Origin: a virus
DNA length: 32,449 nucleotides
Strand: one strand, 5' to 3'
IMG/VR virus record: IMGVR_UViG_3300046665_000772
Span: 1-32,449 of that record
A program made the translations under genes and the position numbers. Below are positions 3,143 to 25,860 of this stretch, in pieces (positions within the stretch are counted from its first letter, which is position 1; every line of letters starts with the position of its first letter). The notes under the pieces are model-generated. The model did no database searches. It worked only from the letters and a program-made list of their open reading frames with translations, and was not told the origin of the DNA.

Positions 3143-3649
3143 TCACGGCCTCGCATTCACGGCCCGGCAGGCTTCGAAGCGCCCGACGACACGCTCGTAT
3201 CGCCGCACGAGTCCTGCAACTGCTGCTCCGTCGCCGAGAATCTCTGCAGCATCCTCCGGCACAATTTGCGGTCCGCCTCCGTCAGCTGTAGGTTCGCTGG
3301 CAGCGGGTCGATCTGCGGTCGCGGCGGCGGCTGGTACTGGCCCGGTTGGGCAGCGCAGGCGGTCAGTGCCAGCGCGCACACGGCGCTGAGCAGCATCCAG
3401 ATTCGTTGCATATTCCTGATCCTTTCGTAGTGCCGCGGTGTCGCGGTCGAGCAGTTGAGCGCGGAGGCCCGATTCGATGGCGAGGTTCGCGGTTGCGGCG
3501 CTGTCGCGCAATTCCTTGCCGACGGCGATTGCTGCGGCGTATCCAGCGTCGTACCGCCCAACGGCGTAGTGGTGCATGCCAAACCATGCGCCCGCAGCGA
3601 GCAGCGCGGCCAGCACAATGCCGATGAGTAGGCCTTCGATCCGGCTCAT
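3143..3649 (-). CDS. Rz-like inner-membrane spanin
   Basis: A 168-residue protein with one N-terminal transmembrane segment (about residues 7-24, I-G-I-V-L-A-A-L-L-A-A) and a periplasmic domain with helical, charged segments (A-A-I-A-V-G-K-E-L-R-D and Q-E-Y-A-T-N-L-D-A-A-Q-R-R-V-R). This is the i-spanin topology: it spans the periplasm with an outer-membrane lipoprotein partner and fuses the two membranes in the last step of lysis. The start at 3649 overlaps the lysozyme stop as ATGA. A second gene, the o-spanin, lies wholly inside it in another frame. It is the last gene of the late operon. Confidence 0.85.
   Translation of the reverse strand: MSRIEGLLIGIVLAALLAAGAWFGMHHYAVGRYDAGYAAAIAVGKELRDSAATANLAIESGLRAQLLDRDTAALRKDQEYATNLDAAQRRVRAGTDRLRCPTGPVPAAAATADRPAASEPTADGGGPQIVPEDAAEILGDGAAVAGLVRRYERVVGRFEACRAVNARP
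3157..3411 (-). CDS. Rz1-like outer-membrane lipoprotein spanin, nested in Rz
   Basis: An 84-residue protein in a different frame inside the Rz gene. The N-terminus is a lipoprotein signal: M-Q-R-I-W then a hydrophobic core and the lipobox L-T-A-C with the lipidated Cys19. The start of the mature part is proline-rich (Q-P-P-P-R-P-Q-I-D-P-L-P), a hallmark of o-spanins, then comes a basic helical region and a serine-rich tail. Full nesting of Rz1 in Rz is known from lambda-type phages. It should be lipidated, sorted to the outer membrane and bind the Rz C-terminus. Confidence 0.85.
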   Translation of the reverse strand: MQRIWMLLSAVCALALTACAAQPGQYQPPPRPQIDPLPANLQLTEADRKLCRRMLQRFSATEQQLQDSCGDTSVSSGASKPAGP

Positions 3650-4140
3650 GACAAACCTCGACGGCAAAGTTCGCGCTCGCGCTCGCGCCGACGCGTCAGC
3701 CCAGCCACCTCGCGGCCACCGGCCCGGTTCCACAACAGCAGCGCATCGCACGCGCCGACCATGTCGCCCGCGCGCGCACGGCGTGCCATGCTCGAGCTAC
3801 AGAACGCCGACACACCGATGTTGTAGGCCGCGTCGACAAATGCCACGCGCTGGCCGTCCGTGATCAGGTCCATCGGGATGCACTTCGCGATGCCGGCGGC
3901 GTGCCGTTCCAGATCGCGATCCAGCTGCGCATCGCACTCGGCCGGCGCGTACGTCTTACCAGCCTGTGCGTTCTCGGTGGCCCCGTCACAGTAGGTCAGC
4001 ACGCCGCCAATGTCGCGATACGTCGTGAGGACCCGCCCCTCCTGCACGGGGGTGAACGCGAGAAGCGCGGCAGCTGCGGCGGCGCCCACAAGGCCCAGAA
4101 GCCCTCGGCGCGGCCACTTTGCGGTCTGATCGGTCGCCAT
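3646..4140 (-). CDS. Endolysin, T4-type lysozyme (GH24) with SAR anchor
   Basis: A 164-residue glycan-cutting lysozyme. The catalytic residues Glu34, Asp43 and Thr49 have exactly the spacing of the T4 lysozyme triad, in the context Q-E-G-R-V-L-T-T-Y-R-D and G-G-V-L-T-Y-C-D-G-A-T. The N-terminus has two arginines and then an alanine/glycine-rich, weakly hydrophobic segment (residues 13-30), as in signal-anchor-release endolysins that reach the periplasm through Sec and are activated when the membrane is depolarised. Several cysteines (51, and others near A-E-C-D and F-C-S-S) could control activation. The gene lies 1 bp after the holin stop and overlaps Rz by 4 bp. Confidence 0.9.
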   Translation of the reverse strand: MATDQTAKWPRRGLLGLVGAAAAAALLAFTPVQEGRVLTTYRDIGGVLTYCDGATENAQAGKTYAPAECDAQLDRDLERHAAGIAKCIPMDLITDGQRVAFVDAAYNIGVSAFCSSSMARRARAGDMVGACDALLLWNRAGGREVAGLTRRRERERELCRRGLS

Positions 4141-4141
4141 G

Positions 4142-4393
4142 TCACGCGCCTCCTTTTTTCGCCAGGAGAGCGCCGAGCTGCAGCCAGCCGCGATACACCT
4201 GCAGGGCCACCTTCGCCACGACAATGGCCAGACCCATATAGCGGAACGTATTGGTGCCGAGATGCGGCCCCAAGGCCGGCATCCAGCCTTCGAGGGCTGC
4301 GATGATCTGGTCGGCGAAGGGGTACGCCAGCAGCAGCACGGCCCATACGTTCTTGCGCGCCGTCTGCGCCCACGCGATGAGTTGGGTCTTCAT
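4142..4393 (-). CDS. Putative holin
   Basis: An 83-residue membrane protein. Hydrophobic stretches occur at about residues 15-33 (N-V-W-A-V-L-L-L-A-Y-P-F-A) and 50-70 (Y-M-G-L-A-I-V-V-A-K-V-A-L-Q-V-Y), with a basic K-K-G-G-A tail. Its size, its place directly before the endolysin and its pairing with a second small membrane protein support a holin that depolarises the inner membrane and triggers the SAR endolysin. It overlaps the upstream gene by 4 bp. The family is recognised by context more than by sequence, and which of the two small proteins is the holin and which an antiholin cannot be told. Confidence 0.75.
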   Translation of the reverse strand: MKTQLIAWAQTARKNVWAVLLLAYPFADQIIAALEGWMPALGPHLGTNTFRYMGLAIVVAKVALQVYRGWLQLGALLAKKGGA

Positions 4394-4578: not shown

Positions 4579-5069
4579 TGATGGCTTTCAGCCGCAGGCG
4601 TAAAAAAGCCCGCGTTTGCGGGCTGGTTGAGGAAAGTGAGGGCCGCGTGTAGCGTCCCGGGATCGAAGCGACCTGGATCCGGGATACCCAGCGAGGCCGC
4701 GCACGCCTCCGAACAGAACCACTTGCGCTTGTCGTCTCCCACAGGCGACAGCACGAAATGCACATTCCCCAGCAGGTCGTATAGCTCGCCCTCGTGCGCA
4801 TCAAACCATCTCAGGGCAGGCAGCGCGAGATGCTCAGGCAGGTCGACGAAATCCCAAAGTGCTGGGTCGAATTCGAACCACTTGATCCGGACGCCGCCGT
4901 CCATGTAGGACGACGATGCGGCCTGGCTGGGCTCGGCGGGCCCGCCGTCGAAGAAGATCAGCTCGACGTGCGAGTACGGACTGCGCGTCCACCAGCGCAC
5001 CAAGCGGTTGTAGACGCCCGGCATACCTGCATGTGTGCCCTTGTAGAAGGCTGCGCGAAACTTAGCCAT
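4563..5069 (-). CDS. YiiX/permuted NlpC-P60-like cysteine peptidase
   Basis: A 168-residue protein with the signature of permuted NlpC/P60 (YiiX/YaeF-like) enzymes: an early histidine in S-P-Y-S-H-V-E-L (His34, Glu36) and a later cysteine in K-W-F-C-S-E-A-C-A-A-S-L-G (Cys119). In this permuted order the histidine precedes the cysteine. No signal peptide or membrane segment is seen. Its place between the receptor-binding protein and the holins suggests a structural or tail-associated wall-active enzyme rather than the main endolysin. The last residues are encoded across an intrinsic terminator. It overlaps the upstream gene as ATGA. Confidence 0.7.
   Translation of the reverse strand: MAKFRAAFYKGTHAGMPGVYNRLVRWWTRSPYSHVELIFFDGGPAEPSQAASSSYMDGGVRIKWFEFDPALWDFVDLPEHLALPALRWFDAHEGELYDLLGNVHFVLSPVGDDKRKWFCSEACAASLGIPDPGRFDPGTLHAALTFLNQPANAGFFTPAAESHQCSTT
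4602..4624 (-). terminator. Intrinsic terminator inside the peptidase coding end
   Basis: On the minus strand: stem AGCCCGC, loop AAAC, stem GCGGGCT, then a run of T (six with the stem base). It is translated as P-A-N-A-G-F-F. It lies 24 bp before the start of the first lysis gene, so it can reduce lysis-gene transcription. Confidence 0.8.
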
Positions 5070-7591
5070 CAGATCTCCTCGATTTCGACGGTGGTTGAAT
5101 AAGTCGTTGCGTACTGGATGGCGACGTTGGAATCCTTGGGCCGCCGTCCATAGACCATGTTGTCGCGCTCGAGCGTCAGGTCGGCCGAGCCCGGGAACAG
5201 GCTCAACAGGATCGGGTAGGCCCGGCTGTTGCGAAGAATGTTCACGAGTGCAGCACGGTCCGTCGCCGGCATCGTCTCGAGAGTGATCGGCACTCGCCGG
5301 TAGATGTATCCCGCATTGGCGCCCTGATCGCCGGCGTCAGTCCGATAAAGCTCGGTCGTGTCCACAGGATCCAGTTCGGCCGCGGAAGCGTTATACGTCG
5401 GCGACCAGTACGGCCCCGCCACCAGGCGCGCCGCCTCGACGTAGCCCTGCAGGTTGTTCGCGTCCGTGATGTCGACGGTCATGCCGTATGCCTGCACGGC
5501 GGCGGGCAACCACATGCGCGCATACGCCCCGCCACCGTAGGCATAAGCGCTGGCGGCCTGCGCGGCAGTCCAGCCCCGCAGAGTCACCGCCGGCGCCGGG
5601 CACGCCAGCACTGCGCCGCTGTCGTACGTGTAGGACTGCCAAGTGTCGATGTAGCCGAGTGGTCTGGTACCGAGCGGACTTGACCAGATGTCTGCAGCGC
5701 GCGTTGCTGCGGCAGTCGTGGTCGGGAAATACGACGAGGCAAAGCCCTGCCCTTCCACTTGGACACGAGTGGCAAGGATCGAGTCGCCCACAGTAACGGA
5801 AGTCGTGTTGTTGGGGTAAATCACGAAGGAGCCGGTGCCGCCCGAGACGTAATTTCGGGTGATTTGAATCACGGTGTCCACGGTCAAAGACAGGTTGGAA
5901 ATGACAAACAGCCCGCCACTGGTCTGGACTGCGGTCCCAGGCCCCTCAAGAATCACGCAGAAGCTATCCGCATTGGCGCCCCACGAAACGCCAGCAGAGT
6001 CGTATAGACCGATGGCGCACGATGAGACCGACCCGGCGCGCAAGGCGATGGTTGCCGTGTACCTAGTGCCAATCGCAATGGTGCCAAAGCTCTGGGTCCG
6101 ACTTTCGTTGGCGCTCGTAGTGGCCTTGCTGACGATCTGATACGTTTCAAAGGCCCGGTACATCGTACCCGTCGCCGCCGCGATGTTGCAGCCGCTCCAG
6201 CCCGTAGTAAGGGTGCCAGAGGCGGTAAGTACGTTTGTTGCAACCTGCTCCAGCAACAGCTTGGGCGGTGCCGACAGATTGTTCGGGTTGTACGTCAACC
6301 GGGCGACGTTGATGGCAGCCGACTTCATCGTGCCGTCGCTGGCGATGTACGTGCCCGTGGAGGCGCGCGAGATGAACGTATCTTGCGACGGGTAGTAGCT
6401 CGTAACGGCGTTCGTGTACGTAAGACGCTTTACGCTGACATTATCGATGTAGACAGCGCCTGCTGAACTTCTTCCGAAGGACACCCAAGTGGTTGCATTC
6501 GTGGCGGTGAACGTCAGTGCGTAGGTCGCCCCCCCGAGCAGCGTCGGCGAGTTAATGATATCGCCGATGTTCTGCGTATTGCCAACTTTAGCAAGGACCC
6601 CCGTATTGGTAAGGGTGAACACAAACAAGTACGTAACACCGGGTGTCGTTGGGATAGCCTGCGACAAAAATGCAGTATTGGTCCCGTCGCCGTTGATGCT
6701 TGCGCTCCCCCCGTTTGTACTGCTCCAGGTAACAGTTGACGAACCCTGTTGAGTTGCTTGCCAGCCTGCAAGGAAAGCATCAAACGTGGTGTTCGTGATG
6801 AGTTCGCCCCCGAGCGTGGTGGGAATCTGCTCAACCTGCGCACCCCACACGTAGAGGCCACTCACCCCGTCGCCCGTGTAGGTGGTAGTGACCGCATCCG
6901 ATTGGAGGCCGATATAGTTGGTGCCAGTGGCGGTCTTCGACACGAAGAAAAACACGTTACAGCGATACCACCCGTTACCTTGGGCGGTAATGCTGCCAGT
7001 AACACCCGCGCCAGCAGTGCTTGAGATAGTTCCGGTCTGTAGGTCGAAAATGACATACGCCGAGAAGTTGCTGTAGCTGAAGACGGACGAGAAACCCACC
7101 CGAACGTAACGCCTCGACCCCTGCTTTGCGAACACGGACATCGCGTAGGGCGTCCCGGCATTCAGCGTGATGGTCGACGTACGCAGTTCATGGGCCGCGC
7201 TGACGGTCACGTCTTCCCGGATGAACTGGGCGCTGTACGAGCCATCCGGGGCCGTCGCAAAAAATGGGGAGGCGATGCAGTTTGTACGGGACCAGGGGGA
7301 AGCGGACGGCGTTTCGCTGGTCGTGAGCATGTTCGTGACCGACGGCTCGCTGGTCAGGCGCACGCGCTTTGTGACGGTTGGCGACCAATTACAGAATGGG
7401 AAAGCGATGGCCTGGATTGTTTCGAGCGAAGGCCACGCCGCGTAGATCGACGCGGCGATGCCGGTCGCGCGCCACACGTCCGACTTCGTATCGATCTGCA
7501 GGTTAGTGACAGCCAGCGCGCCGGCCGTGCTGCTGGCCGTCAGCGTCGCGCGATCGACCGCGTTATCAGAAACAATGCGCAGATTGTTCAT
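5069..7591 (-). CDS. Modular tail receptor-binding protein with carbohydrate-binding-like domains
   Basis: An 840-residue protein. The N-terminus (1 to about 85) has R-I-V-S-D-N-A-V-D-R-A and a W-P-S-L-E-T-I-Q-A-I-A-F-P-F-C-N stretch; the C-terminus (about 660-840) ends with R-A-Y-P-I-L-L-S-L-F-P and E-I-E-E-I. I read these as halves of one conserved tail scaffold. Between them are three beta-rich modules: residues about 85-270 (ending Y-V-W-G-A-Q-V-E-Q), about 270-400 (ending Y-I-D-N-V-S-V-K-R-L, as in CBM4/9-like domains) and about 430-640 (ending V-Q-V-E-G). These endings are typical of jelly-roll carbohydrate-binding modules, so the protein probably recognises a surface sugar. The start at 7591 overlaps the previous stop as ATGA; an ATG at 7600 is less likely. 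Confidence 0.75.
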   Translation of the reverse strand: MNNLRIVSDNAVDRATLTASSTAGALAVTNLQIDTKSDVWRATGIAASIYAAWPSLETIQAIAFPFCNWSPTVTKRVRLTSEPSVTNMLTTSETPSASPWSRTNCIASPFFATAPDGSYSAQFIREDVTVSAAHELRTSTITLNAGTPYAMSVFAKQGSRRYVRVGFSSVFSYSNFSAYVIFDLQTGTISSTAGAGVTGSITAQGNGWYRCNVFFFVSKTATGTNYIGLQSDAVTTTYTGDGVSGLYVWGAQVEQIPTTLGGELITNTTFDAFLAGWQATQQGSSTVTWSSTNGGSASINGDGTNTAFLSQAIPTTPGVTYLFVFTLTNTGVLAKVGNTQNIGDIINSPTLLGGATYALTFTATNATTWVSFGRSSAGAVYIDNVSVKRLTYTNAVTSYYPSQDTFISRASTGTYIASDGTMKSAAINVARLTYNPNNLSAPPKLLLEQVATNVLTASGTLTTGWSGCNIAAATGTMYRAFETYQIVSKATTSANESRTQSFGTIAIGTRYTATIALRAGSVSSCAIGLYDSAGVSWGANADSFCVILEGPGTAVQTSGGLFVISNLSLTVDTVIQITRNYVSGGTGSFVIYPNNTTSVTVGDSILATRVQVEGQGFASSYFPTTTAAATRAADIWSSPLGTRPLGYIDTWQSYTYDSGAVLACPAPAVTLRGWTAAQAASAYAYGGGAYARMWLPAAVQAYGMTVDITDANNLQGYVEAARLVAGPYWSPTYNASAAELDPVDTTELYRTDAGDQGANAGYIYRRVPITLETMPATDRAALVNILRNSRAYPILLSLFPGSADLTLERDNMVYGRRPKDSNVAIQYATTYSTTVEIEEI

Positions 7592-8232
7592 GCCGGCCAC
7601 CCGATGGCTTCGACTTCTTCAACAGTGTTTGCCGCCTCGATCTGCGCTCGCAGCGCACGGCCAGTGTCGTACACCTGTGTGACGTGCATGCCAAGCGCGA
7701 CGCCCAGGCCAATCATGCCGTCCGCATCGAGCGTACGCGTGGTGTTGTCGGTCAGGGTCCAGGTGATCGAGTAGGGCTTCCCGCCCTGCTTCGCCATCCA
7801 GGCCAGCTGGGTGGCGCCGCTGATGCGCTCTTTGTCGGCCTGATACGCGCCGCCGTCGTAGATGACGTCCTTGACTTCCGCCGCGGAGCGCGCCAGTTTG
7901 ATGCGATTCCACGCGCGCCCCTTCGCGGCATCCAGGGTGTCGCCGAGGTCAGTCACACGCTCACCGCCCGCGAAAGGCGAATCTTCGCTGCCGACCAAGG
8001 CCGCTTCGACTTCGCCGAGGAAGGTTGCCTCGTCGCCTGCAAGGCTATCGACGGGGATGCTAACCCCCCATTGCCACGCGACCGGAAGGTTGGCGAGCGC
8101 AGCCTGCTCGCTCGCGTGCGAGTTGACGATGACGATCGCGGTGTTGGCTGCGAGGTCCACCGTAAGGCGCGCGGCGCGGTGGTAGCTGATGGTGATGCCG
8201 TTTTCGGCGGTCAGGGTCTTGGCAATTGGCAT
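7588..8232 (-). CDS. DUF4376-type tail protein
   Basis: A 214-residue protein. The C-terminal half from about residue 100 matches the pattern of DUF4376: A-K-G-R-A-W-N-R-I-K-L-A-R, then D-G-G-A-Y-Q-A-D, S-G-A-T-Q-L-A, W-T-L-T-D-N-T-T-R-T-L and L-R-A-Q-I-E-A-A-N-T. Such domains end many phage tail fibre or tail-fibre assembly proteins; their exact role is unknown. The N-terminal part is beta-rich and starts with a T-A-E-N-G-I-T-I-S-Y-H-R hairpin. The gene lies between tail tip genes and the receptor-binding protein, with a 4-bp overlap to the latter. Confidence 0.7.
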   Translation of the reverse strand: MPIAKTLTAENGITISYHRAARLTVDLAANTAIVIVNSHASEQAALANLPVAWQWGVSIPVDSLAGDEATFLGEVEAALVGSEDSPFAGGERVTDLGDTLDAAKGRAWNRIKLARSAAEVKDVIYDGGAYQADKERISGATQLAWMAKQGGKPYSITWTLTDNTTRTLDADGMIGLGVALGMHVTQVYDTGRALRAQIEAANTVEEVEAIGWPA

Positions 8233-19849: not shown

Positions 19850-20198
19850 GCGAATACCCTTCCAGCATCCATTCGGCGTTGCGCCGGTCATCCAGCAGCG
19901 CCGGCCCGGCGATGATCTGCATGACGCGGTCACCCTTGCCGTGCAAAGTGACGCGCATAGCGGTTGTGATGCGGTCATCGATGTCGATGCGCAAGCGCGT
20001 GCGCGTCGCCGCCGTGATCATGTCGTTCGCCGTGCTCTCGCCGCGCTTGGGCAGCACATCCTGGGCGTTTGCCCAGACATGGTCGGCCACGACCTCCCAG
20101 CCGCCCGCGCCAGGGATTTCCGTGCCGTAGTCGGGATCGCGCGCCGCCGTGCGTCGCTCGATTGTGACCTGTTCGTCCTTCCGAAACGGCGCCGTCAT
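19842..20198 (-). CDS. Phage head-tail adaptor (head closure)
   Basis: A 118-residue beta-barrel protein of the head closure/stopper type (SPP1 gp16-like). It has V-T-I-E-R-R-T-A-A-R-D-P-D-Y-G, the G-G-W-E-V-V-A-D-H-V-W-A-N strand typical of the family, and a C-terminal W-M-L-E-G-Y. The start at 20198 overlaps the previous gene by 4 bp; an in-frame start at 20231 would add 11 residues inside the upstream gene. It sits in the neck between connector and tail. Confidence 0.8.
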   Translation of the reverse strand: MTAPFRKDEQVTIERRTAARDPDYGTEIPGAGGWEVVADHVWANAQDVLPKRGESTANDMITAATRTRLRIDIDDRITTAMRVTLHGKGDRVMQIIAGPALLDDRRNAEWMLEGYSHG

Positions 20199-20734
20199 CC
20201 CGGCACCCAGTAGCGGTCGAGCTTGCGGCACAGGAATTGCGCGTTCGGGTTCGGAAAATAGTCATTCTCGACCATACCCAGGATGAAGCCTTTGATCGCC
20301 GGCGGAACCGACGTCTCATCTGGCCCATAGCCGCACACGTACCGCACCTCGACAGCGTTGATTCGCGCGGCTGTCTGCGGCCAGGCGCGACCCGGTGCCG
20401 GAACGATGTACCCCGGCTCGCTCTTCGCATCGACCATGTAGTCCTGCGGATCCAGAGTCTGCAACACGCCGTCTACGTCGTAGAACTTGACGTAGACGAC
20501 GCTGGCCAGCGGGGCGTGCGGCAGCCGGATCGCGTCCGGGAACCCGTCCAGCGTCACCTCCCACGTCTGCGTGATCAGCGCCCGCCCGGTCCGGTGCTCC
20601 GCATCGTCCGTGAAGTCCCGCACCTTCTGCTCCAGCTCTGCATCCAGTGCGGCGCCGCTCGTGCGAGCGGATGCTCGCGCGGTGGTTATCGACACCGCCA
20701 GTGCCGCCGGCGGGACGATCAGTCGATCAATCAT
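20195..20734 (-). CDS. Head-tail connector protein (gp6-like)
   Basis: A 179-residue adaptor that binds the portal ring. The N-terminal helix region has A-E-L-E-Q-K-V-R-D-F-T-D-D-A-E-H-R-T-G-R, then Q-T-W-E-V-T-L-D-G-F-P, I-R-L-P-H-A-P-L-A-S-V and the V-R-Y-V-C-G-Y-G strand followed by V-P-P-A-I-K-G-F-I-L-G-M-V, all typical of gp6-like connectors. The ATG at 20734 overlaps the stop of the upstream repeat protein as ATGA and has AAGGAAC ahead; a longer frame reaching 21391 is a shadow of that gene. Confidence 0.85.
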   Translation of the reverse strand: MIDRLIVPPAALAVSITTARASARTSGAALDAELEQKVRDFTDDAEHRTGRALITQTWEVTLDGFPDAIRLPHAPLASVVYVKFYDVDGVLQTLDPQDYMVDAKSEPGYIVPAPGRAWPQTAARINAVEVRYVCGYGPDETSVPPAIKGFILGMVENDYFPNPNAQFLCRKLDRYWVPG

Positions 20735-22239
20735 CGGTTGTTCCTTTGCAATGCGGCCGGACGGGAACCGCTCGTCGCGGCCGGGCGGCTTTCGTTGTAG
20801 TGCTGCCGCGGCGCATAGCCGGCACCGGCCGGCGCCCGCGCATAAGCAACCTGTGCGCTGTAGCGCAGCTGCGCATCGGCAACGACAAGGTTGAACGTTC
20901 CCAGCTGAGTGGGCATGTAGCGCGCGCAGCGCAGCGCGGCCGTAGCGCCGGCAACAGTGAACGTGCCGACGGTCGCGGGGAGCCGGCGGCCAGCCAGCAG
21001 TATCGCGGCGGCGCCCACCCATCCAAATGCGCCGGTGTTGGCGGGCAGCCGTCGATGCGCCTGCAGCCCGGTTGCGGCGCCCACGAGACCGAATACCCCA
21101 GCCGCTGCAGTCAGCGTGTACGCCGGCCCACCTAGCCCGGGAGCGGGCGTATACACCATCTGGACGGTCCCGGCCGACAGCGCGAACGCTGCCGACTGCG
21201 CCACCAGCTTCCGCGAGGCGCGTAGAGCGGCACTGGTCCCGACGAGTGCAAACCCAGCTGTGCCTGTCGGCAGCAAGCGCTGCAGGAGTAACGAGGCTGC
21301 GGCGCTTGACATGGTGAGCGCCCCCTGATCCGCTGCCAAGCGGCGGGCGGTTCTCAGTCCTACTGGCGTAGCCGCAAGGGTGAGCGCGCATTGATCTGCC
21401 TGAAGCTTTCGGCCTGCATACACGCCTGCCGCAGCCGCGGTCAGTGAAAACGATCCGGGCGCTGCCGTCAGCGTGTATGCGCTGCCGCTTGGGACGACGA
21501 ACGTTTCGTCATAGTCGTCAGCAGCCAGGAACAGCTGCCAAGGGTTCGCGCCCAAGGACTGCATTTCCGCATCCGAAAGGGTGCGCGACCACGCGGCGAC
21601 CAGTGACAGGCCGCCTACGGCCCAGGGAGACGAGGTGCTCGTTTTGCGACAGCCGATCCAGAAGTTACCCGTAGGCGTGGCGATGTTCGTTCCCGCCGCG
21701 CTCGCGCCCTTGACGCCGTTCTGGAACACCGAGATTGCCTGGGGCGAGGCGGTCGCGCCGAGGCTGAAGCCGGCCGCCATTTCGGCAGTCGTCATGACGC
21801 GCGATCCGTACAGGCTGGAAATGATCGCGCTGCTGGTATTGAATGGCGCGAAGTTGGCGCGCCCCTGGTCGATCCGGAACTGGAATTTGCGCAGACTGCC
21901 GCCCGCGTCGTCGTCGATCGCCATCTGCGTGACGTTCGCGGCGCAGGCCCCGACGGCAAACAGGCTGTAGTTCGTGCTCGCCAGCGCAGGAATCGTGTCC
22001 GACGGGATGATGTAGCTGTTCGCGGTGACCGCCTGCATCCCTACGCCCAACGGTGTCGCGATCGATTTCCCGACAATGCCGCCTGAGCTGTTGGTGTAGG
22101 GCTTAAATACCCCTGTGTTGACGGACCAGCCCATGGCGCCGGACAGCGTGGGCACGAACGCGAACGCCAGGCCCAGCGTGATCGGGTTACTCCAGTCGAT
22201 CTGCACCCGCCCGTGCGGTTGTCGACGCATCCCGGCCAT
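20731..22239 (-). CDS. LamG-like protein with nine 22-residue repeats, putative head fibre
   Basis: A 502-residue protein. Residues 10-240 look like a LamG/concanavalin domain: N-P-I-T-L-G-L-A-F-A-F, a jelly-roll core, and the closing motif A-W-S-R-T-L-S-D-A-E-M-Q-S-L-G-A-N-P-W-Q. Residues 254-462 are nine tandem units of about 22 residues with consensus R-R-L-P-A-x-x-G-x-F-x-L-x-G-x-A-A-x-L-x-A. The tail from 463 is disordered and Arg/Pro-rich. The alternating hydrophobic pattern suggests a beta-solenoid or beta-arch stalk. Its location between capsid and connector genes points to a head or neck decoration fibre that binds a sugar. There is no signal peptide. Confidence 0.65.
   Translation of the reverse strand: MAGMRRQPHGRVQIDWSNPITLGLAFAFVPTLSGAMGWSVNTGVFKPYTNSSGGIVGKSIATPLGVGMQAVTANSYIIPSDTIPALASTNYSLFAVGACAANVTQMAIDDDAGGSLRKFQFRIDQGRANFAPFNTSSAIISSLYGSRVMTTAEMAAGFSLGATASPQAISVFQNGVKGASAAGTNIATPTGNFWIGCRKTSTSSPWAVGGLSLVAAWSRTLSDAEMQSLGANPWQLFLAADDYDETFVVPSGSAYTLTAAPGSFSLTAAAAGVYAGRKLQADQCALTLAATPVGLRTARRLAADQGALTMSSAAASLLLQRLLPTGTAGFALVGTSAALRASRKLVAQSAAFALSAGTVQMVYTPAPGLGGPAYTLTAAAGVFGLVGAATGLQAHRRLPANTGAFGWVGAAAILLAGRRLPATVGTFTVAGATAALRCARYMPTQLGTFNLVVADAQLRYSAQVAYARAPAGAGYAPRQHYNESRPAATSGSRPAALQRNNR
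20854..21480 (-). repeat. Nine tandem protein-coding repeats of about 66 bp
   Basis: The coding DNA for residues 254-462 of the LamG-like protein is built from about 22-codon units. Most begin with R-R-L or R-K-L and hold G-x-F-x-L or A-L-T-L followed by A-A-x-L. Units 1 and 6 share A-Y-T-L-T-A-A. The units diverged clearly at the DNA level, so this is an old array kept by selection, not a recent expansion. Confidence 0.7.
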
Positions 22240-22613
22240 TACAGACTCGTCACGGCTTCGAGTTCGGCCGCCGCCGTCACGGCATTGGTCGTGTTCGCGT
22301 ACGGCACGACGCGCAGGTACATGGCTGCACGCGGAATTTCGAACGACCAGCTATACGAACTGCTGGTGGTCGTATCCCCGGCAACGGGAGCGCCGAAATC
22401 GCGCCAGTTTGTTCCGTCGGCAGAAACCTGAACTTGCAATTGGATTGCCGTACCCGGAGCGCTCGCGCCGTTGGCGACGCTCAAGGTCAGCAACCCGCCA
22501 TAGTACGCGCGACAGTCGATCGCGTTGACCGTGACGCTCGGCGACGCCTTGGTGCCACCAGCGGGCACGGATACGGATGCCAGGACGGCTACCAACGTTT
22601 TCGCAATTGCCAT
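22239..22613 (-). CDS. Small beta-rich head-region protein
   Basis: A 124-residue protein with an Ig/fibronectin-like strand pattern: L-V-A-V-L-A-S-V-S-V-P-A-G-G, Y-Y-G-G-L-L-T-L-S-V-A-N-G, I-Q-L-Q-V-Q-V-S-A-D-G-T-N-W and Y-L-R-V-V-P-Y-A-N-T. The V-S-A-D-G-x-N-W turn is common in phage proteins with immunoglobulin-like folds. The N-terminus is hydrophobic, but a signal peptide is unlikely in a capsid operon. It precedes the LamG-like fibre gene with a 1-bp TAATG overlap and may be its anchor or a capsid decoration. No family name is claimed. Confidence 0.6.
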   Translation of the reverse strand: MAIAKTLVAVLASVSVPAGGTKASPSVTVNAIDCRAYYGGLLTLSVANGASAPGTAIQLQVQVSADGTNWRDFGAPVAGDTTTSSSYSWSFEIPRAAMYLRVVPYANTTNAVTAAAELEAVTSL

Positions 22614-23755: not shown

Positions 23756-25144
23756 TTACGACGCCGCGATCTTCAGCAGCTTGATCGCCTGGGTGTTGCG
23801 TAGCTTGCCGCCCACGCGCTTGCGCACATAGAACTTCACAAAGCCCGGAGTCGTGATCTCGTCACGCGTCATGCGCATGCCCACGCGGTCGCAGATCAGG
23901 TAGCCTTCCTTGAAGTCGCCGAACGCGATCGGCGTGGAATTTGCGGCCACCGCTGGCATGTCTTCGGCCTCGGTGATCCCGTAGCCCATGAAGGTGTCCG
24001 GCTGCGAAGCAGTCAGCGTCGGCTGCCACAAATATTGGCCGGTCGAGTCCTTATACTTGCGCATCGCTGCCAGCACGAGCTTGCTGGTCACCCAGCGCGC
24101 GTTGTTGCGGTAGCGCGCGCGCAGCGAGTAGATCAGGTCGTAGAACACGTCGGTGCTGGTCGGCATTGCAGCTGCCTGACCGGACGCGATGTATTGCAGG
24201 GTACCGAAGGCGCGGCCGCCATCCGCCGTCGCCACGGGGGCCGGGCCGGCCAGAAAGCCGGTGGGCTTCTTCGTACCGTTGCCGGACACGAATGCCGCGC
24301 CTTCACCCTGCGCCATCGCTTCAGCAACCGACATTTGCAGCCAGCTTTCCACGTCGAAGAACAGATCGTCGAGGGATTCTTCCGAAGCCTGCGGTTTGGC
24401 GGATGCCATGCCGAAGGTCGGAACGATCTCGATCAGGTCAGGCGTGTTGGTCTGGTTGCGGGTATCGCCTTCACCCAGCCATTCGAAGCCGGCACCGTTC
24501 AGGTCAAACAGCTCATGATAGTCGGTGCTGCCGACCGTGCGCACGGTCGCGATCGAGCGGATCGGGGAGATGTCGACCGACAACCGGGCGATCGTGCTCT
24601 CGACGATCTTCGGCAGGGCGTAACCGCCCGCGGCGTTGGTGCCGACCACAGCCTGCGTCGCGCGGGTCTCGCGGCCACCGGCGGCGTTCTTTGCCTCCAG
24701 CGCCTTGAAGGCCTGGGTCATGCGTTGCTCGCACTGGTGGTCTTTCGGAGCGCGCACCCAGTCGAAGAAGGCGTTCTTGTATTCGGACTCTTCCTGCGTC
24801 TCGCGGGAGTCGCGATCGCCGCCGCCGAGGGCGCCGGGGCGCGACAGCTTGGTTTCCACCTTCTCGAGGCGAGACTTCTGCTCGGACATCGACGTGATCG
24901 CCTCGTCCATGCGCGCCAGTTTTGCATCCAGGTCGGCAGTCGACTTGCCAGCCTTGATGGCCTCGATGCGCTCATCGTTGGTCTTCTTGTATTCCGTGAA
25001 GGCCGTGTTGATCTTGTCGATCGCCTCGGTCACCGAGCGCAGGGTCGGCTCTTCGCGTTTTTCGTAGGGGATCACCACGGCCTTGGCTTGGAACGCGGCG
25101 AAATGGACGGCCATGGTGGCGGCCAGCAGAACGGTTTTCTTCAT
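23756..25144 (-). CDS. Major capsid protein, HK97 family
   Basis: A 462-residue HK97-fold capsid protein. Residues 1-22 look like a signal peptide (M-K-K-T, hydrophobic core, Q-A-K-A), which is odd for a capsid. Residues 30-105 form a coiled-coil delta/scaffold domain (A-I-D-K-I-N-T-A-F-T-E-Y, L-E-K-V-E-T-K-L) that the prohead protease should remove. The capsid domain then has G-G-Y-A-L-P-K-I-V, F-E-W-L-G-E-G, F-F-D-V-E-S-W-L, A-F-V-S-G-N-G-T-K-K-P-T-G and the end region I-A-F-G-D-F-K-E-G-Y. The start at 25144 has GAAAGAAG upstream; an in-frame start at 25159 lies inside the protease gene end. Confidence 0.9.
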   Translation of the reverse strand: MKKTVLLAATMAVHFAAFQAKAVVIPYEKREEPTLRSVTEAIDKINTAFTEYKKTNDERIEAIKAGKSTADLDAKLARMDEAITSMSEQKSRLEKVETKLSRPGALGGGDRDSRETQEESEYKNAFFDWVRAPKDHQCEQRMTQAFKALEAKNAAGGRETRATQAVVGTNAAGGYALPKIVESTIARLSVDISPIRSIATVRTVGSTDYHELFDLNGAGFEWLGEGDTRNQTNTPDLIEIVPTFGMASAKPQASEESLDDLFFDVESWLQMSVAEAMAQGEGAAFVSGNGTKKPTGFLAGPAPVATADGGRAFGTLQYIASGQAAAMPTSTDVFYDLIYSLRARYRNNARWVTSKLVLAAMRKYKDSTGQYLWQPTLTASQPDTFMGYGITEAEDMPAVAANSTPIAFGDFKEGYLICDRVGMRMTRDEITTPGFVKFYVRKRVGGKLRNTQAIKLLKIAAS

Positions 25145-25155
25145 GTGATCTTCTT

Positions 25156-25860
25156 TCACGAAGTGATGGATTGGAGCAGCCGGTTGGCCGCCTTCAGCGC
25201 CGCAGCGGCTTCATGAGCGTCCCGCTCATCCAAAGCGATGCGTTTGACCTCGGCGATCAGCGCCTTGGCCGCGTCCGCCGAGAAGCCCGCATCCCGCAGG
25301 GCCTGCTCGGCTTGACGAATGGTCTTGATGCCGGCGACATCAGATGCCTTCACGCCGGTGATACGGGCCTTGTCGTTTGCCGGGAACGTCACGAGCGACA
25401 CTTCCCACAGGTCGATTTCGGTCAGCGTGCGCACTTCCGTCTCGCGGTCGTAGCCCCACTGTTTCGCGAGGAAGCCGATCGACAGGCCGTTGATGGCGCC
25501 CATCTTCAAAAGTGCGTGCGCTTCCTTGCCCTTGACAGTGTCCAGGGCAAGTTGGCCCTTGATCTTCAGACCTTTGCTGTCCTCGACCATTTCGGTCCAG
25601 ACGCCGATCGGCGTGCTTGGGTCGTGCTGCCAGAGCATGGCTGGCATCGTGCCCGCTGCCTTATGCGCTGCGAGCGAGGTCACGTATGCACCACGCGCGA
25701 TCACGTCGTCGTAGTCGTCGCGCACGCCGAACACGGAGCCATAGCCCTCGACCGTTCCGTCGTCGCCGGCGGCCTTGAGCTCGAACGCGATGTTGCGCAC
25801 CTCGCGGCCTCCGGAGGATTCCCGGCGCTCCAGGTCAGTTGGGAGGGTTTGTTTTCGCAT
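25156..25860 (-). CDS. HK97-type prohead maturation protease
   Basis: A 234-residue serine protease of the herpesvirus-assemblin/HK97 gp4 class that trims the capsid delta domain. The catalytic histidine is in M-L-W-Q-H-D (His79) and the serine in I-N-G-L-S-I-G-F (Ser127), in the usual order and distance. Other typical pieces are G-Y-G-S-V-F-G, D-V-I-A-R-G-A-Y and W-E-V-S-L-V-T-F-P-A-N. The C-terminal 60 residues are helical and probably removed by self-cleavage. It overlaps the portal gene by 26 bp and is followed 11 bp later by the capsid gene. Confidence 0.9.
   Translation of the reverse strand: MRKQTLPTDLERRESSGGREVRNIAFELKAAGDDGTVEGYGSVFGVRDDYDDVIARGAYVTSLAAHKAAGTMPAMLWQHDPSTPIGVWTEMVEDSKGLKIKGQLALDTVKGKEAHALLKMGAINGLSIGFLAKQWGYDRETEVRTLTEIDLWEVSLVTFPANDKARITGVKASDVAGIKTIRQAEQALRDAGFSADAAKALIAEVKRIALDERDAHEAAAALKAANRLLQSITS

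Follow-up and report, generated by a model that had tools for sequence, protein, structure and literature searches.

On balance, we favour the view that a protein encoded in the head gene block of an IMG/VR virus record of 32,449 bases (the whole stretch analysed, referred to below as the window) forms an adhesive surface fibre at the head or neck of the phage, anchored on the particle by its C-terminus, with a LamG-like domain at the distal end of a β-rich spacer, and delivered by a mobile cassette. The C-terminal tail would anchor the fibre on the particle, while the β-rich units of about 22 residues would act as a spacer whose length follows the unit number. The N-terminal LamG-like domain would face outward and bind a surface polysaccharide or glycan, and the fibre could keep the virion close to cells until its tail engages; two small genes of the cassette probably help to mount or build it.

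Results

The gene lies between capsid and adaptor genes

The ends of the open reading frame given in the preliminary description were correct, but its strand had to be changed to minus; the plus-strand reading of the same interval contains several stops and was rejected. The gene and its neighbours are listed in Table 1. It lies downstream of the capsid gene, directly between the gene for a small β-rich protein (c20) and that for the head-tail adaptor, and it shares start/stop overlaps with each of these neighbours (TAATG at the c20 stop). Its placement between capsid and connector, as originally proposed, is thus borne out, with the capsid gene on one side and the adaptor (phrog_442) on the other. 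The open reading frame at 19,975-20,430, a candidate for the adaptor, proved spurious.

The minus strand of the window carries a siphovirus-type structural block encoding a small terminase, TerL, portal, S78 protease and HK97-type capsid, as well as neck and tail-terminator-like proteins and a tape measure. Tail genes of its own are located elsewhere, e.g., at 5,069-7,600 (phrog_5939 tail protein), and a phage lysozyme gene (PF00959) lies at 3,646-4,224.

Table 1. Features of the LamG-repeat gene and its neighbours in the window
Feature	Position	Strand	Basis or remark
CDS, 502 aa: LamG-like domain, nine 22-aa repeats, conserved Arg/Pro tail	20731..22239	-	
LamG/concanavalin-A-like N-terminal domain, residues 1-240 (~10-240); motif QIDWSNPIT...NPWQLF	21520..22239	-	
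Repeat block 1, five units of ~22 aa, residues 255-364	21148..21477	-	Autocorrelation, profile, whole-unit gap in relatives
Conserved linker between repeat blocks (PAPGLGGPA, after VYT)	21121..21147	-	Alignment of relatives
Repeat block 2, four units of ~22 aa, residues 374-460	20860..21120	-	Autocorrelation, profile, relatives
Conserved C-terminal Arg/Pro tail, residues 461-502, 42 residues, putative anchor module	20734..20859	-	
Next gene: head-tail adaptor (phrog_442)	20195..20734	-	ATGA overlap with LamG gene
Cassette partner c20, 124 aa, small β-rich protein	22239..22613	-	F5/8-type-C match, E 6e-7
Cassette partner c1, 142 aa	22613..23041	-	
Upstream companion c2 (phrog_644), 137 aa	23044..23457	-	
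HK97-type major capsid protein	23756..25159	-	PF05065

The N-terminal domain has a lectin-like fold

The Pfam model PF13385 matched the window protein at 21.1 bits, below its gathering cut-off of 27.6, but a homologue (L011) passed with 49.2 bits. An AlphaFold2 (AF2) model of the domain was a jellyroll, with pLDDT values mostly of 70-95 over residues ~10-240. Foldseek matched this model to CBM40, sialidase/trans-sialidase and other concanavalin-A-like domains in the PDB (E values from 3e-7 to 1e-5), and also to many concanavalin-A-like proteins of phages. The model and its fold matches therefore agree on a concanavalin-A-like jellyroll, and the LamG-like domain first proposed from the bare sequence is upheld. 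There was no Pfam match to an Ig-like domain in the window protein. In an alignment of 25 relatives, the LamG domain was kept in all.

The repeats are regular, β-rich and vary by whole units

The nine regular 22-residue repeats of the preliminary description are real, and their period lies far beyond chance. BLOSUM62 self-similarity at a lag of 22 residues was 0.911, against a maximum of 0.297 among shuffled sequences (0 of 1000 shuffles), and a profile built only from the repeats of relatives found nine units at residues 256-461 of the window protein. The exact units span residues 255-460, and a proline/glycine linker, VYTPAPGLGGPA, follows the fifth, splitting the array into five plus four. 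From column counts, the pattern is R-L-x-A-x-x-G-x-F-x-L-x-G/A-x-x-A-x-L-x-x-x-R. No usable match to the repeat was found in Pfam, PHROGs or PDB sequences, no Pfam or PHROG model covers it, and a search of plasmids with the repeats of a relative gave no match.

At the DNA level, the copies were 45% identical at a lag of 66 bases, with no Tandem Repeats Finder (TRF) array of that period. Between genomes, units at the same position were 45-50% identical, compared with 30-31% for units at different positions, which indicates that the array is old and that unit positions have kept their identity. Recent tandem duplication was rejected on these two grounds, i.e., the low identity of the DNA copies and the better match of same-position units between genomes.

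The close relatives (L002, L003 and L017-L024) have the same 22-residue repeats in 7, 8 or 9 units, and the differences appear in alignments as clean 22-residue gaps; the repeat number, whose comparison among relatives had been suggested as a check, thus shifts by whole units. In distant relatives the repeats are of unrelated sequence, although in almost every case their strongest period is 20-24 residues or twice that (L006 and L032 were too short or weak to count in this comparison). A constant period with free sequence, together with copy changes by whole units, fits a spacer. Repeats of the same type also occur in a Manatee Spring podophage (L040:5147-5737; MW202742.1, UOF81327.1), where a stand-alone protein contains eight very regular 22-residue units and its gene immediately precedes the one annotated as major capsid.

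In AF2 models, the repeats formed short strands, roughly three per unit, and were β-rich with no helix, at pLDDT values of ~50-70; block 1 was modelled with three strands per unit at ~60-70. Disorder across the repeats, named beforehand as a refuting outcome, was not seen in this low-confidence model. As regards the β-solenoid that had been expected, many of the best PDB matches to the repeat model were β-solenoids, but with non-significant E values of about 0.1 or worse. A model of one chain says little about whether the shaft is trimeric.

The C-terminus is a putative anchor

The Arg/Pro tail was predicted to be disordered, as the preliminary description had it (pLDDT 30-40), and yet its sequence is conserved, with the motif YARAPAGxGYAPxxHYNESRPA...RPAxxQRNxR. 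The same tail follows homologous repeats in L017-L020 and unrelated ones in L015, L042 and L045. L021, L022 and L046 have a second tail type, RIVxFEGSGSR, and in L002, L003, L023 and L024 a stretch resembling it stands ahead of another domain; a third type is common to L025 and L044. In a myophage group (L029, L030 and L033), the fourth type is a neck-terminator domain (PF23961), and the tail-sheath gene comes immediately after it. When searched in L033, this domain was matched with an E value of 4e-21. The LamG-repeat protein is continuous with it in L033:7959-9884 and in L029:7959-9884. L029 and L030 may be the same virus, as their loci are equally long and the matches start at the same place. 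In L033, a GTG codon in frame close to the junction might serve as an internal start and yield a separate product. As a point against our reading, the Arg/Pro tail does not track capsid type: L002 has a major capsid protein (MCP) 85% identical to that of the window, yet a different C-terminus. The C-terminus is one of a few exchangeable modules.

Recurrence of the Arg/Pro tail behind unrelated repeats is as expected of an anchor, and the neck-terminator fusion would locate the protein at the neck and its LamG domain distally. The conserved, recurring C-terminal module thus makes a C-terminal anchor with an N-terminal LamG tip the likely polarity.

The polarity could be the reverse, with the N-terminal LamG domain docking on a common virion site or a small partner, and the repeats and C-terminal module facing outward. 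This is the main rival, since no other part is kept as widely as LamG: every relative retains the domain with its QIDWSNPIT motif, whereas repeats and C-termini are swapped. In phage tail fibres the base is generally N-terminal, and the docking partner could be the cassette protein c3, which is 60-80% identical in phages whose heads are unrelated. Arguing against this polarity are the neck terminator fused to the C-terminus and the near-identical C-terminal tails behind unrelated repeats, and we consider the reverse arrangement unlikely.

The gene travels in a mobile cassette

No relative was found among the 50,697 phage records of INPHARED, whether searched with the full protein, the LamG domains of relatives or c3. 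IMG/VR yielded about 36 relatives and GTDB contigs a further two, including a provirus in a Massilia contig (L015); a match occurred in 8 of 394 genomes of the bacterial family of Massilia, that Massilia included. Upstream, the gene order in relatives is c2 (phrog_644), c1, one of c3, c4 or c20, and then LamG, so that the slot held by c20 in the window may be occupied by c3 or c4 instead. Together with two small genes, the LamG gene recurs in phages whose heads and tails are unrelated. Treatment of c3, c4 and c20 as one family was unsupported (hhalign probability 1-7%).

The cassette follows the MCP gene in HK97-type relatives, lies between portal and MCP/protease in L021 and between portal and scaffold/MCP in L025 and L034, and in L033 the LamG gene is placed between a neck protein and the tail sheath. 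Separately, phages with capsid and portal proteins only 22-35% identical to those of the window carry a c2 that is 88-98% identical, which implies that c2 recently moved between unrelated head modules. In L028:3732-6272, on a 58-kb phage contig, an 847-residue protein upstream of the cassette is similar to virion RNA polymerase and DarB-like families.

Most relatives thus carry the gene in head blocks, as the window does; the exceptions are L004 and L010. In the former (L004:7040-8915, a 112-kb phage contig), a c1-c3-LamG cassette that has no repeat array follows tail genes and precedes replication genes, and in L010 the cassette has replication genes on one side and the terminase-portal-capsid genes on the other. 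These two placements would suit a receptor-binding or side fibre of the tail whose cassette merely inserts in head operons. Such a fibre is decidedly improbable, given the head-block position in most relatives, the neck-terminator fusion and the separate tail genes of the window.

Compared with L002, the closest relative, the window has conserved flanks (identities of 94% for the portal, 85% for the MCP, 89% for c2, 84% for the adaptor, 77% for Neck1 and 92% for MTP). Inside, c1 and c20 were undetected in the comparison, LamG was 37% identical and the repeats 43%. The c1-c20-LamG stretch is therefore a local island of divergence, as is common for host-contact genes.

Head-block position could also indicate a decoration or cement protein, with LamG and repeats lying flat on the shell and stabilising it without any adhesive role. 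Jellyroll-type decoration proteins are known on phage capsids, e.g., the minor capsid protein of Milano (PMC10491603). However, a shell-fitting cement should co-vary with the MCP, whereas this gene moves between unrelated capsids with no corresponding change in MCP, is more divergent than the genes around it and has repeats of variable copy number; we therefore regard a cement as improbable.

Changes at the first, second and third codon positions of the LamG gene were 0.08, 0.04 and 0.25 between L002 and L024, and 0.11, 0.07 and 0.31 between L002 and L023. Close relatives thus differ at third positions roughly three times as often as at first positions, indicating purifying selection. Together with the tight coupling of the gene inside a structural operon, this makes it extremely improbable that the product is a non-virion protein, i.e., a lysogenic-conversion or secreted factor, or that the gene is decaying.

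Discussion

A head or neck fibre, as first suggested for this protein, fits the position of the gene in the window, the head blocks of relatives and the neck-terminator fusion, and the suggestion can be refined by adding a polarity, with the C-terminus as anchor and LamG as tip. A concanavalin-A-like tip on a spacer at the head or neck would most simply serve reversible adhesion to surface glycans, although a LamG fold is by itself no proof that a sugar is bound.

It is also possible, and we put it forward tentatively, that the cassette represents a mobile, modular way of adding head or neck adhesins to phages. It would consist of c1, one of c3, c4 or c20, and the LamG-repeat-anchor protein, and would operate in siphophages, myophages and phages of the portal-scaffold-MCP type independently of the head. 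The stalk would keep a period of 20-24 residues while its repeat sequence is freely replaced, and the anchor would be drawn from a few interchangeable modules, including a neck terminator. We found no earlier description of a modular, head-independent adhesin cassette, and a literature search returned no paper joining phage LamG with head fibres, capsid decoration or structural proteins.

Less is known about head and neck adhesins than about tail fibres. If our reading is correct, a cassette that can be recognised from sequence, passes between unrelated phages and exchanges stalk and anchor independently would allow one to predict which phages carry head or neck fibres. Fibre length and anchoring would also be easy to test, because the number of repeats shifts by complete units and one lineage is tied to the neck terminator by fusion.

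Comparison with known systems

Among the closest parallels are Hoc of T4 and the Ig-like adhesins allied to it on capsids, including those of gut phages (PMC13370021; review, PMC7602432). Like Hoc, the window protein would be an accessory capsid protein of elongated, modular β domains, with a C-terminal capsid-binding part and adhesive domains outward; unlike Hoc, which has Ig-like domains, it has LamG and 22-residue repeats, and no sequence relation was detected. The head-attached fibre of phi29, gp8.5, is thought to order host contact (PMC7602432). That fibre is an α-helical coiled coil, whereas the repeats here are predicted to be β, in low-confidence models without helix. Neck and collar appendages, such as the fibritin whiskers of T4 and the collar spikes of XM1, for which host sensing has been proposed (PMC10491603), would be alike in their location at the head-tail junction; their folds differ, and the neck link here comes from one fusion lineage (L029/L030/L033).

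In the behaviour of its repeats, the window protein resembles the BACON-domain protein of crAssphage, whose tandem-repeat number differs from one related phage to another and for which carbohydrate binding is suspected (PMC6949934). The BACON repeats are whole domains, whereas the units here are of 22 residues and the lectin-like domain is single. The adenovirus shaft has a repeat of about 15 residues, which differs from the period of 22 found here. A triple β-spiral of this adenovirus type has been proposed as a model for the capsid fibres of phage 7-7-1 (PMC12796354). An adenovirus-type fibre would be alike in joining a shaft of short β repeats to a globular binding domain, but the domain order is the opposite. 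The Manatee Spring podophage protein UOF81327.1 has the same type of repeat and its gene adjoins the capsid gene, but it is without LamG and has a different C-terminus. Functionally, the window protein would resemble Hoc, the phi29 head fibres and neck whiskers, yet it has no defining domain in common with these or with the BACON protein.
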